Shown: positions 862 through 5,728 of the stretch, in pieces | Numbering within the stretch: the first letter of the stretch is position 1 | How the letters are laid out: each line of letters begins with the position of its first letter | NCBI GenBank assembly: GCA_030620005.1 | Contig: JAUXAJ010000307.1 | Coordinates: 1-5,728, forward strand | DNA length: 5,728 nucleotides | Direction of reading: 5' to 3' | Source: Promethearchaeota archaeon | GTDB taxonomy: Archaea; Asgardarchaeota; Lokiarchaeia; Sigynarchaeales; SOKP01 | Made by a program: the position numbers and the translations under genes | The notes under the pieces: model-generated | What the model was told of the DNA's origin: nothing | What the model saw: only the letters and a program-made list of their open reading frames with translations | The model's database searches: none

Positions 862-1989
862 TTAAATTTCTCCCGCTTTTAACTTTAAATAATTGATAAA
901 ATCGCCTAAAATATCATTATTATTTGTATTTCTCGCTTCTTCAGGATATAATCTAGAAAAATAGACATCATCAGGTACTTTTACATCCCCATCTTGTAAT
1001 TTTCTTACTAAAAAATTTTTTGCTTTAGCATCTTTATTCTTTGTAAAATGTACCCAAAATTTAGAATCTAAGATTGAATCATCGTTATGTTTATAGTAAA
1101 GACCCATTTTAAGAAATGATGTTCTATTTTCAATAAAAATGTTATAAAATTGGTCAACATAATCTAGTTCTTCATCTAGCTTACTTAGTAAAACATATTT
1201 CTCTAAAAGGTTCTTTATTTTGCTTATTATTTTACCAAATTCAATTTTATATGGTTTATTTAAATTATCAATAGTTTTGAGGAATTTATTACTTGAAAAA
1301 ATTTCATTTAAGCGAGAAATCTTGATTAAAGAAGATAAATTAAGAGAATCACCTGAGCTGTTCTTTAAACCATAAGTTATAAATCCAATTAATCTTGGAA
1401 GATTAGATTGTCCTTGAATCGTTCGACCTGAAATAGTCATAAAAGTTGGGAGGATAAAAACGGGACTGCCGATATTTTCATTAAAAACGATCAATTCTAA
1501 AAGATAATTTAAATTATGAGATTTCCCTGAGATAAATCCTCGTCTAGATATTGTTATCAGTGAATTTGGAATGTCTGGTTCTCTTAAATAACTTAAAAAG
1601 TAGGCTTCAGTACCAATCTCAATTTCTTCCTTTAAATAAAAATAGTTTTGAGGAATAATCTTAATATCATCAATTTCTGGGTCAAAAGGAAAAAAATTTA
1701 TTGCTAAATCAATTTTTTCATCTGGATGAAAAATCCAATCGAATTTAATAGAATCTTTATTTTTAGAATATTTCTTAGATTTAATTTTTCCTTTAGTTGA
1801 AAAATAGAAAAAATAATAATCATTAAACTCTGAAAGTGATTTTATTACGCTTTTTAATGTAGTAATAATTGCAAAGTTATCAAAATTTATTAAAACACCT
1901 GTTCCAAAGATTTTTATTCTTCTATTTGAATCTTCTTTAATTCCTAAGGCTATAATGCTTTTAAATAATTCTCTATGGACAAAGCTCAT
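862..1989 (-). CDS. trypsin-fold protein, probably inactive as a protease
   Basis: The 375-residue protein has the outline of a chymotrypsin-fold (S1-like) domain in its first 210 residues. FGTGVLI (28-34) matches the GTGFLI-type strand, IITTLKSV (41-48) lies where the catalytic-His segment TNAHVV normally is, IDLAI (93-97) matches the DLAVL segment with its Asp, and NIGSPVF (172-178) matches GNSGGPVF. LIGFITYG (200-207) is the usual following strand. In this alignment the His is replaced by Lys46 and the nucleophilic Ser by Ile173, while Asp94 is kept, so I infer a non-proteolytic fold. Residues 230-375 are helical and charged, with no motif I know. The ATG (1987-1989) shares one base with the stop of the upstream gene (TAATG), so translation is probably coupled. 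There is no signal peptide. One 60-base line is 25% G+C, against 50-60% in radA. The gene is probably real; the fold is a motif-level judgement. Confidence 0.72.
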   Translation of the reverse strand: MSFVHRELFKSIIALGIKEDSNRRIKIFGTGVLINFDNFAIITTLKSVIKSLSEFNDYYFFYFSTKGKIKSKKYSKNKDSIKFDWIFHPDEKIDLAINFFPFDPEIDDIKIIPQNYFYLKEEIEIGTEAYFLSYLREPDIPNSLITISRRGFISGKSHNLNYLLELIVFNENIGSPVFILPTFMTISGRTIQGQSNLPRLIGFITYGLKNSSGDSLNLSSLIKISRLNEIFSSNKFLKTIDNLNKPYKIEFGKIISKIKNLLEKYVLLSKLDEELDYVDQFYNIFIENRTSFLKMGLYYKHNDDSILDSKFWVHFTKNKDAKAKNFLVRKLQDGDVKVPDDVYFSRLYPEEARNTNNNDILGDFINYLKLKAGEI

Positions 1990-2663
1990 TAAGATTCAGC
2001 TCTTCTTCTTTTTTTTTCTCTATTTAATAATATTTTAAATTCTTTCAAAAAATCTATGAATTCCTTGATAAGAATTTTGCCCGCTTTTTCAAAATCTTCA
2101 ATTGGATATTCAATATTAAATTCATCTAAAGCTTTTTCTACATTCTCAGATGAAACATTATGAACGATAGGTACCATATTCCTTATTTTTCTTAATTTTC
2201 TTAATTTCTTTATGATTTCATCAGAATCTTCTAATTCATTTCTTAAAAATAAGTTTAAGTATTGAATGCTTTGAAGTGGATGAAACTCAAAAAAAGTTAT
2301 GTCATTATCTATTGAAAAGATCTCTTTTAAGTGGTTTATTAATATTTCATCATCAATAATTCTACAATTCAAATCAGTATATTTTTTTTTTATATCATCA
2401 TTATGAATTTTAGATTTAATTGATTTTCCATCTAAACAATCAATTAAAGCACCTAATGAAGCACAAAATACATCAAATTCCATTGAATCATTTCTACATC
2501 CCAAGGTGACTGTTGTAAGTGGAATTCCTTTTAATTTAAAAAGTTCAATCTCCCAGAGTTGTGAACTATATGTATTAATTGCATCAATCAACCGAGCAAT
2601 ATCTAAAGGATTGATATCCTCAATAACTACACTAGATTCTCTTACGGTAATATCATCTGACAT
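1989..2663 (-). CDS. hypothetical protein, 224 aa, partner of the pseudo-protease
   Basis: I do not recognise this protein. It is soluble, mostly helical by eye, with three Cys in the first half (GCRND, FCASL, DCLDG, within residues 55-79). It ends in a strongly basic helix (KKRRRAES). No membrane segment, nucleotide-binding loop or nuclease motif is visible. The ATG (2661-2663) comes seven bases after the stop of the upstream charged-protein gene. Those seven bases are all T on the coding strand, and no Shine-Dalgarno site is present. The stop overlaps the next gene's start by one base. This tight pair shares very low G+C and suggests an accessory two-gene module in which the two products act together. 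Islands of this kind include toxin-antitoxin or defence pairs, but nothing in this protein proves that role. Confidence 0.75.
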   Translation of the reverse strand: MSDDITVRESSVVIEDINPLDIARLIDAINTYSSQLWEIELFKLKGIPLTTVTLGCRNDSMEFDVFCASLGALIDCLDGKSIKSKIHNDDIKKKYTDLNCRIIDDEILINHLKEIFSIDNDITFFEFHPLQSIQYLNLFLRNELEDSDEIIKKLRKLRKIRNMVPIVHNVSSENVEKALDEFNIEYPIEDFEKAGKILIKEFIDFLKEFKILLNREKKRRRAES

Positions 2664-3568: not shown

Positions 3569-4387
3569 TCACCAGGGTGCCTCTCTAATTCCCGACTTGC
3601 GAGGGTGCTTTGGCTTGAACCTGCGCCGAGTATAAGGCTTGTAGCGAATTCTTGGAGGATGAGTTCTGTTTCTACTCAAGATCACGTAATACAAGCAGTT
3701 TAATCCATGCAATGAAAATTTCAAGCCTAAATAAAAAACGAGTACCAGAAACCACGCAAAATATTCCTGCATTGCAATAACGAACGGTCCAACGATAATA
3801 AATCTTGCGAATTCGACTGGTGGAACCCATTGGTAAAGATCTACTACTAGCCACGACAACCCCACTGATATAACGAGTAGTACAACGAGATAGCCGGATA
3901 GCCTTGGAATCCTCTTGAAGGCGTTAACGATATTTTTTAAATCTGGATTGGACGGCGACCCGCCTAGAAACAACGCTACGCAAAATAGTCCCGCTAGTAC
4001 CCTGTAAAGATCGGTAAACACCTCGGAAAAAGCGATTGTTAAAGACCAATAAATTAGACCTGTAGACACTAATAACGGCGCCAATGAGATCAATATGGCC
4101 TGAAAGATTGTGCGAGGATGGACGTGACGGACGGCTCCGTTTGGGTTAGGTCTGCCCGTTTCTTCGTCCCTGTATCTTACTTTAATTCCTTTAGGCATCA
4201 AGCCCACGAAAAGGCAAAAAAAGAAGTGGCTTAACTCGTGAACCCAAACACCCAAATACCTCAACAATAAAACGATACACTTGAAGGGTCCGATGTCCCG
4301 CCTTAACAAGATCGTCTTTGTTAACCTGCACGTCACGAATTGAAAGATTAAAATTGTTCCTAATAATAAAATTTCAACGATTATCAC
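3569..4387 (-). CDS. multi-pass membrane M50-like metalloprotease
   Basis: This 272-residue integral membrane protein resembles the site-2 type (M50) zinc proteases, which cleave substrates within the membrane. HELSH (50-54) gives the HExxH zinc motif inside a hydrophobic segment. SPSNPDL (144-150) is in the position of the second M50 motif, with Asp149 as the likely third ligand. Hydrophobic stretches lie at about 2-18, 36-62, 94-118, 124-142, 164-184 and 195-225. Between the first motif and the next helix is a loop with NGAVRHVHP (83-91), similar to the strand-loop insert of related proteins. There is no PDZ or CBS domain. The last 33 residues are a soluble Arg/Lys/Pro tail (RRRFKPKHPRK), probably cytoplasmic. 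The start is GTG (4385-4387) with no Shine-Dalgarno site. The TATA box lies about 29 bases before it, so the mRNA looks leaderless. The substrate is unknown; a regulatory or quality-control role is inference. Confidence 0.78.
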   Translation of the reverse strand: MIIVEILLLGTILIFQFVTCRLTKTILLRRDIGPFKCIVLLLRYLGVWVHELSHFFFCLFVGLMPKGIKVRYRDEETGRPNPNGAVRHVHPRTIFQAILISLAPLLVSTGLIYWSLTIAFSEVFTDLYRVLAGLFCVALFLGGSPSNPDLKNIVNAFKRIPRLSGYLVVLLVISVGLSWLVVDLYQWVPPVEFARFIIVGPFVIAMQEYFAWFLVLVFYLGLKFSLHGLNCLYYVILSRNRTHPPRIRYKPYTRRRFKPKHPRKSGIREAPW

Positions 4388-4870: not shown

Positions 4871-5728
4871 TTGGCTGAATTAAATCAGGTTAAGGGAATA
4901 AACGCAAGACAGATCAAACTGCTTCAAGAAAACGGCATCGGCACGGCAGACGCCTTGGCAATGTCTCCTAATAACGTGGTGGCGGCGATCGACGGTTTAG
5001 GCGATAAGACGGCGAAAAAGCTGATTTGGAACGCTAGGAACGCCTTGGGAATGACTGAATTCGTTCAAGCGGTCGATATAGACGAGAACGTGGAATACAT
5101 CGCTACTGGCTCTTCTGAACTCGATCGCATTCTCGGAGGTGGCGTCCAGACGGGCAAGCTCACGGAAGTTTACGGTCCTTTCAAGTCGGGTAAGACCAAC
5201 TTTGCCCAAACGATTGCCGTGACCGTTCAATTACCGGCGAGTAAAGGAGGTCTGGGAGGTGCGGTCGCTTACGTCGACACGGAAAACACGTTCTCTAAAG
5301 AAAAGGTCAAGCGCATCGCAAAAAGGTTCGGGCTCGACCCAAAAAAAGTTTTATCGGGAATATTTCACGCCAGGATCTACAGTTCAGATCACCAAACCCA
5401 AATGATAATGAAGGCAGAAAACCTTTGCAAGACCCGAAACGTGCGATTGATCGTCGTGGATAGCTTGATGGCGTTAATGAGGGCGGAATACTTGGGGATC
5501 GGCATGCTCGCCAGGCGACAGGGTGTTCTCAACAACATGTTGCACGCTTTATCGAGAATTGCCGAGACCTATAACTGTGCAGTTTTGCTGACCAATCAAG
5601 TGGCCACGAAAATGATGGGAATGTTTTCTGGGAACGACGCCATTGGAGGAAACGGTAATTTCACGCATCGTGAATTGCTTCTAAATAGTTGCCCATGGCT
5701 GCCACTTCCGCGTCATGTTCAAGACTAA
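4871..5728 (+). CDS. radA: DNA repair and recombination protein RadA, split by a 31-base intron, 3' end outside window
   Basis: RadA is the archaeal RecA/Rad51 recombinase, which forms ATP-dependent filaments on single-stranded DNA and carries out strand exchange. Residues 5-60 hold the N-terminal helix-hairpin-helix domain (VKGI at 7-10, IDGLGDKTAKKL at 40-51). FVQA (64-67) is the FxxA polymerisation motif. GPFKSGKT (102-109) is Walker A, DTENTF (136-141) follows, LIVVDS (193-198) is Walker B, and TNQVATK (241-247) leads into loop 2. The match stops at AIGGN (257-261). Read without splicing, residues 262-285 are unrelated and end at TAA (5726-5728), well short of the usual 320-350 residues. 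From 5685 another frame gives IVAHGCHFRVMFKT, the normal continuation. I therefore read exon 1 as 4871-5653, an intron at 5654-5684, and exon 2 from 5685 past the window end. The TTG start is supported by a TATA box and Shine-Dalgarno site. A sequencing error or pseudogene is less likely given the RNA structure. Confidence 0.95.
   Translation: MAELNQVKGINARQIKLLQENGIGTADALAMSPNNVVAAIDGLGDKTAKKLIWNARNALGMTEFVQAVDIDENVEYIATGSSELDRILGGGVQTGKLTEVYGPFKSGKTNFAQTIAVTVQLPASKGGLGGAVAYVDTENTFSKEKVKRIAKRFGLDPKKVLSGIFHARIYSSDHQTQMIMKAENLCKTRNVRLIVVDSLMALMRAEYLGIGMLARRQGVLNNMLHALSRIAETYNCAVLLTNQVATKMMGMFSGNDAIGGNGNFTHRELLLNSCPWLPLPRHVQD
5654..5684 (+). other. 31-nt bulge-helix-bulge intron in radA mRNA
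   Basis: Removing these 31 bases joins AAC (Asn261) to ATA GTT GCC CAT GGC and restores conserved RadA sequence. The RNA folds as a BHB motif. GGAA (5648-5651, exon) pairs with TTCT (5679-5682, intron) in a 4-bp central helix (one G-U). The bulges are ACG (5652-5654) and AAA (5683-5685). The known endonuclease cuts after the second bulge base, which gives C5653/G5654 and A5684/A5685, exactly the junctions the protein needs. Inside, 5655-5665 pairs with 5669-5678 in ten base pairs (one U-G) with U5659 bulged and a CAT triloop. The outer helix is weak: A5647-U5686, then mismatches, with GCCAT (5639-5643) and ATGGC (5695-5699) able to close the structure further out. This is therefore a relaxed form of the motif. 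Confidence 0.87.

Follow-up and report, generated by a model that had tools for sequence, protein, structure and literature searches.

Results

The radA gene at the end of the contig

The window, i.e. the whole stretch of 5728 bases analysed, which is a whole contig, ends inside a radA gene (4871–5728, + strand). The product of this gene matches Rad51 (PF08423, E 2.7e-59), scores above the cut-off of the RadA equivalog model NF003301 and is 80–86% identical, over the shared part, to the best 119 other proteins (84% for the best relatives); where an organism is named among the 119, it is one of the Lokiarchaeota or of other Promethearchaeota. Judged by these relatives and by the loci described below, the window probably comes from a Lokiarchaeon. 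Exon 1 (4871..5653, +), delimited by its open reading frame and by the Rad51 and RadA profiles, has 261 codons from a listed TTG start and ends with DAIGGN. Past codon 261 the unspliced frame departs from the conserved sequence and meets a stop at 5728, which gives a truncated RadA of 285 residues whose Rad51 domain lacks its final fifth (the match reaches profile position 190 of 244).

Between codons 261 and 262 sit 31 bases (5654..5684, +), a length that is not a multiple of three, and omitting them restores DAIGGN/IVAHGCHFRVMFKT, as encoded by intact Lokiarchaeal RadA, e.g. P0002. The frame break, the position and the length of this insert are read directly from the DNA; the initial annotation had the frame repaired exactly at 5653/5654 and 5684/5685, at the junction given by the protein alignment, and so it is. 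The predicted spliced message would join GGAAAC to ATAGTTGCC. Exon 2 begins with IVAHGCHFRVMFKT (5685..5728, +) and amounts to only 14 codons because the contig ends there, 44 bases after the insert, so that whatever is said below of exon 2 conservation rests on the relatives and not on these 14 codons.

Elsewhere in the window, a gene at 862–1989 (-), with no Pfam match, weakly matches the PADLOC candidate-defence model PDC-S45 (E 4.1e-7, 27 bits) and directly adjoins a second unknown gene at 1989–2663 (-). The protein encoded at 3569–4387 (-) has a below-cut-off match to Peptidase_M50B (E 5.9e-4). Searches of the window returned no Rfam match at the gathering score, hence no catalogued structured RNA, and no tRNA.

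The same insert in other Lokiarchaeia

We collected 31 loci related to this radA from the genome collection, 30 of them titled Lokiarchaeota or Lokiarchaeia. The insertion site is readable in 29: six of these have 31 bases inserted at this very codon boundary, while the other 23 are without an insert; three further matches to the 31-base pattern (L015, L032 and L033) were false, arising from an upstream GGNGGNAAY within the exon, and were left uncounted. The remaining locus by title (L010) lies on a contig titled Candidatus Neomarinimicrobiota, while its RadA groups among the Lokiarchaeal ones; the title probably reflects a binning error.

At the level of the phylum, 44 of 227 genomes have a RadA match at E 1e-90, and in seven of the 227 (G001–G006 and G142) the match breaks off at 261/262 with no contig end nearby, at eight places in all. 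All eight places were confirmed in the DNA to hold a 31-base insert; G006 accounts for two of them, having two main radA copies, both with the intron. Among 239 listed proteins the site could be read in 182: 140 continue as intact RadA and 42 depart, the latter being the product of the window itself, an ambiguous one (P0155) and 40 truncated public proteins, in which intron-like residues are followed by what appears to be exon 2 read in another frame. Some of these 40 come from the same organisms as the loci (at least P0126, which is L002, and P0145, which is L018), and one of the searches was aimed at short proteins, so the protein proportions are not prevalences. The tail of P0155, SFEHIVQCS, is unlike the usual intron-like residues and perhaps denotes a variant intron.

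Exon 1 of RadA was used to build a tree of 189 rows, 43 of them with the insert, by a quick method (P0155 was excluded); the tree is unrooted and has many weak branches. The distribution of the intron on this tree is patchy: at least 30 changes are needed, five of them forced by well-supported branches, and shuffled labels require 39 on average. We consider that the intron is probably old in Lokiarchaeia and was lost many times, which is suggested by its constant site and length together with a diverged but covarying sequence; repeated gain is also conceivable, loss and gain being indistinguishable on an unrooted tree.

A covariance model built from nine insert-bearing sequences (R1) was run against the 227 genomes, 29 first-look candidates being scored per genome. 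The eight radA places score at least 54.7 bits with it, and nothing else exceeds 31.1 bits. Twenty-three loci outside radA were returned, and 11 were translated and read by eye: five (L217–L220 and L222) lie in uninterrupted frames, and no split gene was recognisable in the others of these 11. R1 finds no convincing copy outside radA in the 227 genomes, so nothing points to a mobile family.

A relaxed bulge-helix-bulge motif

The initial annotation described a bulge-helix-bulge (BHB) fold across the insert, and each of its elements is present. The central helix pairs GGAA of the exon (5648..5651, +) with TTCT of the intron (5679..5682, +), one pair being G-U; it is bordered by the triplets ACG (5652..5654, +) and AAA (5683..5685, +) and encloses an intronic hairpin of ten pairs (5655..5678, +), formed by 5655–5660 with 5673–5678 and 5662–5665 with 5669–5672, with one bulged T at 5661 and the loop CAT at 5666–5668. 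If both triplets are cut behind their second base, the cuts fall at 5653/5654 and 5684/5685, as had been claimed, and both agree with the protein junction. The description of AAA as a second bulge has to be amended: the triplet is there, but it is not a true bulge, for it has no adjacent closing exon helix (in the alignment of nine sequences the three would-be closing pairs are formed in 29.6% of 27 cells).

The claim that the fold was obtained independently of the protein did not hold either, as folding of the single sequence does not produce the motif. The minimum-energy structure of 5630–5710 retains the inner hairpin and lacks the GGAA/TTCT helix; its energy is not exceptional (z = -0.83, 39 of 200 shuffles folding as well), and over 5648–5685 the proposed fold reaches -8.2 kcal/mol, versus -8.9 for a version shifted by one pair. 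Folding of one sequence was thus set aside as evidence for the motif, whose support is the comparison of nine sequences and not folding energy.

This comparison used nine distinct insert-bearing sequences in an alignment free of gaps; as L063 and L064 have the same insert, eight different inserts are represented. Standard pairs occupy 91.3% of the 126 cells of the proposed structure, and two-sided changes occur in eight of its 14 pairs. The covariation score is 0.415, against 0.215 +/- 0.026 for shuffles, none of 500 reaching it, a count that is not a probability since the rows are related; sliding the pairing partner by one to three columns gives 0.169 at most. The four central and first five inner pairs are all satisfied in eight of the nine sequences (L062, with one C-A mismatch, is the exception), a result obtained with shuffled-letter inserts in 0.01–0.11% of draws. 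Within the inner hairpin seven of the ten pairs show two-sided changes, and two are weakly kept, 5660–5673 in five and 5665–5669 in three of the nine sequences.

The central helix, formed between exon and intron, has all its pairs in each of the nine sequences (36 of 36 cells). It includes one compensatory pair, A-U to G-C, in L018, where GGGA in the exon and TCTC in the intron replace GGAA and TTCT, so that the compensation runs across the exon-intron boundary. The covariation anticipated in radA of related genomes is thus found: far from carrying substitutions that destroy the helix, the relatives largely compensate them. Given the nine-sequence alignment, RNAalifold predicts the greater part of the hairpin and all but one of the four central pairs. 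In the glycine codon that takes part in the central helix, the third position is a purine in nine of nine intron-bearing genes and in 22 of 34 intronless ones (Fisher p 0.044, on rows that are related).

An exon stem further away (alignment columns 10–14/66–70 and 16–17/64–65) was rejected. It is paired in 85.7% of cells with no two-sided change, and its pairing follows from the encoded AIGG and AHG codons, so it is uninformative.

Which class of motif this is depends on the outer side. The strict form, hBHBh', is present for its inner side and lacks the outer closing helix. The letter code HBh' denotes a central helix of four base pairs, a 3-base bulge and an intronic helix, and here all are found: the central helix in every cell, the inner helix in 87.8% of 90 cells over the nine sequences, and second-base cuts that coincide with the exon junction, in the same register in the nine sequences. 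As the second triplet lacks its closing helix, we class the motif as a relaxed BHB comparable to the HBh' type.

Inserts in rtcB and in a neighbouring gene

The rtcB genes of two genomes, G001 (L079, G001:C222) and G007 (L080, G007:C295), carry a 29-base insert that breaks the match at GGVGY/DINCGVR. This insert presents a 4-bp central helix TTGG/CCAA, the triplets ATA and ACA or AAA, and the hairpin CATAAGAGC/GCTTTTATG; by the rule of the junction scan, the second-base cut joins the frames in both loci. The two inserts are identical at 26 of 29 positions, and their exons at 119 of 150 and 666 of 900. Among the short public RtcB proteins, 15 of the 33 read (33 from 120 listed) end in GGVGY followed by residues such as IRA or IKA.

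A second site in rtcB, LPD/AHQGYGF, holds a 30-base insert that is in frame and contains an in-frame stop, in four other Asgard genomes (L165 in G089, L164 in G090, L163 in G091 and L161 in G160). In the scan, L164 and L165 have a central helix of four pairs, with four inner pairs in L164 and one in L165. The scan gave no such helix for L161 and L163, where by eye a G-A mismatch takes the place of the fourth central pair and a hairpin with six or seven pairs follows below it. The case for a BHB motif is weaker at this site, the motif being less clear than in radA.

Upstream of rtcB in G001, about 0.8 kb before its first Met codon, another gene is interrupted by a 29-base insert (L208:3092–3120). 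It encodes a protein of 241–248 residues with winged-helix and Longin matches below cut-off. The insert has a TTAT/GTAA helix and the triplets AGA and AAA, and the canonical cut restores V-I-D-M-Q as in relatives. An all-against-all tblastn over 1.46 Mb gave frame-breaking inserts in radA, in rtcB and in one further gene. Two antisense rows were set aside, one from L018 in this comparison and one from L208 in the G001 scan mentioned below.

A de novo scan for BHB junctions linking open frames, run with loose limits over 471 kb, recovered the radA and rtcB inserts among 131 hits. Over 240 kb of G001 it ranked the rtcB junction first and that of radA third, and over 760 kb of G004 and G005 it gave 14 weak candidates of up to 60 bases. 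It missed the insert upstream of rtcB in G001 and thus cannot bound the number of introns. The similar short inserts in rtcB and its neighbour suggest a shared reliance of a few core genes in these archaea on the machinery proposed for radA.

Splicing endonuclease and ligase genes

The contig stands alone for its organism, so the enzyme genes are known from insert-bearing relatives. An endonuclease gene (PF01974) was found in all 13 genomes searched and a second one in 12 (G007 has only one). All seven radA-intron genomes have both the alpha and the beta gene, and RtcB occurs in 13 of 13 genomes, these seven included. The alpha subunit keeps Tyr, His and Lys, which we take to be the active-site residues of the endonuclease, in 13 of 13 rows (12 genomes, G005 being represented twice and G009 not included); the beta subunit lacks the His in seven of seven genomes.

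Among PDB chains, the alpha subunit comes nearest to 3p1z and 3ajv, presumably the Aeropyrum enzyme with its Crenarchaea-specific loop, and the loop SPLG..KPR aligns. This Crenarchaea-specific loop is given a role in broad endonuclease specificity in the portion of PMC6379350 consulted. We infer that the endonuclease assembles as (alpha-beta)2 with broad specificity. Extracts of the same article state that only endonucleases of the (alpha-beta)2 or epsilon2 type remove relaxed motifs with efficiency.

Discussion

A probable pre-mRNA intron

We propose, with a probability of about 0.9, that the 31-base insert of radA is a pre-mRNA intron. The two-subunit tRNA-splicing endonuclease would cut the relaxed BHB at 5653/5654 and 5684/5685, RtcB would ligate the exons, and a 31-base RNA would be released; this reading is built on comparative sequence analysis. 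The intervening sequence in radA is real and conserved, and it is very likely to be an intron of the relaxed type that is spliced by EndA and RtcB.

A frame-breaking insert able to form a stem-loop, followed by an exon 2 selected in the resumed frame, would also be expected if the ribosome hopped over the 31 bases of an uncut mRNA, as on gene 60 of phage T4. Known bypassing uses matching take-off and landing codons, but in the nine sequences the insert follows an AAC or AAT codon and ends with TAA or CAA. Moreover, bypassing leaves unexplained the central helix between exon and intron, which places the junctions at the predicted endonuclease cuts in radA, at the YDIN site of rtcB and in the third gene. 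We hold it to be very unlikely.

It is highly improbable as well that the insert is removed outside the EndA/RtcB pathway, for example by excision at the DNA level or by another RNA-processing enzyme. Intronless alleles are indeed found close by on the RadA tree, as such a route might entail, but the structure is of the type recognised by archaeal splicing endonucleases and an enzyme of predicted broad specificity is encoded.

The truncated RadA, 285 residues long in the window, might be the real product, exon 2 being then a remnant or a separate frame, and truncated RadA is what gene callers deposit. Exon 2, on the other hand, is open in the spliced frame over at least 140 codons in all six intron loci. 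Over its first 55 codons in that frame, the eight intron-bearing genes (28 comparisons, synonymous changes being saturated in most) have a pN of 0.008–0.096 and a pS of 0.38–1.02; non-synonymous changes are thus far below synonymous ones, and we conclude that exon 2 is kept as coding sequence in the spliced frame. Truncation would furthermore remove the last fifth of the Rad51 domain, and we give this explanation hardly any weight. An assembly or sequencing artefact, or a pseudogene, as the nearness of the contig end might suggest, is next to impossible and is refuted by recurrence: seven genomes and 40 other proteins share an insertion of 31 bases at this site, and the inserts differ in sequence while covarying.

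The last part of L018 exon 2 is unlike all other relatives, the protein match ending at residue 378; another change of frame or an error in the sequence might account for this. In most of the 12 genomes G001–G012, all Lokiarchaeal, the main RadA is accompanied by two paralogues that share about 43% and 39% identity with it, so that full-length RadA from the intron-bearing gene need not be essential.

Comparison with known systems

Apart from cbf5, the extracts of PMC7714728 and PMC2738675 document hardly any spliced intron in a protein gene of archaea. The first, published in 2020, names the cbf5 mRNA as the sole further BHB intron to have been reported in archaea, in agreement with the initial annotation, which had held such introns to be rare with cbf5 as the established case. 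Extracts of the second mention predictions, unconfirmed, in other archaeal protein genes that are not named as radA, and 12-base inserts in a virus. The suggestion that an intron in radA may be new holds within the open-licence literature of PubMed Central (subscription papers and preprints being outside this scope), where no BHB intron of radA, rtcB or any Asgard protein gene is reported among the matches listed; nor do the portions consulted of PMC12722695, PMC9887622, PMC6125680 and PMC12397907 report any.

The radA intron is of a kind known from cbf5, in a gene and a phylum that appear to be new for it. According to extracts of PMC2738675, the cbf5 introns of Desulfurococcales and Sulfolobales are likewise short (16–44 bases), lie in a conserved protein gene and have a BHB-like motif that is frequently relaxed; insertion at the codon of a catalytic residue is shared as well, and so are cleavage by EndA, which is predicted for radA, and lineage-specific loss, which is probable there. 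They differ by the gene (here radA, and also rtcB), by the phylum (here Promethearchaeota), by their sequence, and by the length, which is 31 bases in every radA DNA sequence. Splicing of cbf5 was shown according to the same extracts, whereas that of radA is predicted from comparisons.

Two other kinds of RNA come close. Extracts of PMC6379350 describe tRNA introns with relaxed BHBs (hBH, HBh') that resemble the radA motif in having a central helix, a bulge and an intronic helix within an incomplete helix set, but the radA intron lies in an mRNA and not in a tRNA. The BHB sites of Haloferax HVO_1309, for which we rely on part of PMC7714728, are endonuclease substrates in an mRNA, as is predicted for the radA motif; unlike the radA intron, they are in an untranslated leader (5' UTR) and leave the reading frame uninterrupted.

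With the radA and rtcB inserts, the phenomenon extends to the closest archaeal relatives of eukaryotes, and to genes that serve DNA repair and splicing itself; the rtcB inserts make the radA case more than a curiosity. More tentatively, at somewhat short of even odds, they may belong to a dispersed pre-mRNA splicing of Asgard archaea running on tRNA-splicing enzymes, with introns of 29–31 bases at highly conserved codons of core genes (radA, rtcB). RtcB would then splice its own message, forming a feedback, and the supply of recombinase would be coupled to the tRNA-splicing capacity. Such a system, if true, would be the first in the archaeal lineage closest to eukaryotes.

The RadA and RtcB entries of these organisms in databases include truncated chains, by which phylogenies and presence/absence tables can be misled. 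The genomes are also close enough to one another for a study of how introns are gained and lost.

Asgard RtcB inteins (PF14890) offer a last comparison. They too are intervening sequences close to the catalytic motif where the rtcB insert of G001 and G007 lies, but they are about 1.5 kb long, in frame and removed at the protein level. Inteins near the YDIN insert site were seen in the RtcB of three other Asgard genomes tested (L170, L172 and L174).
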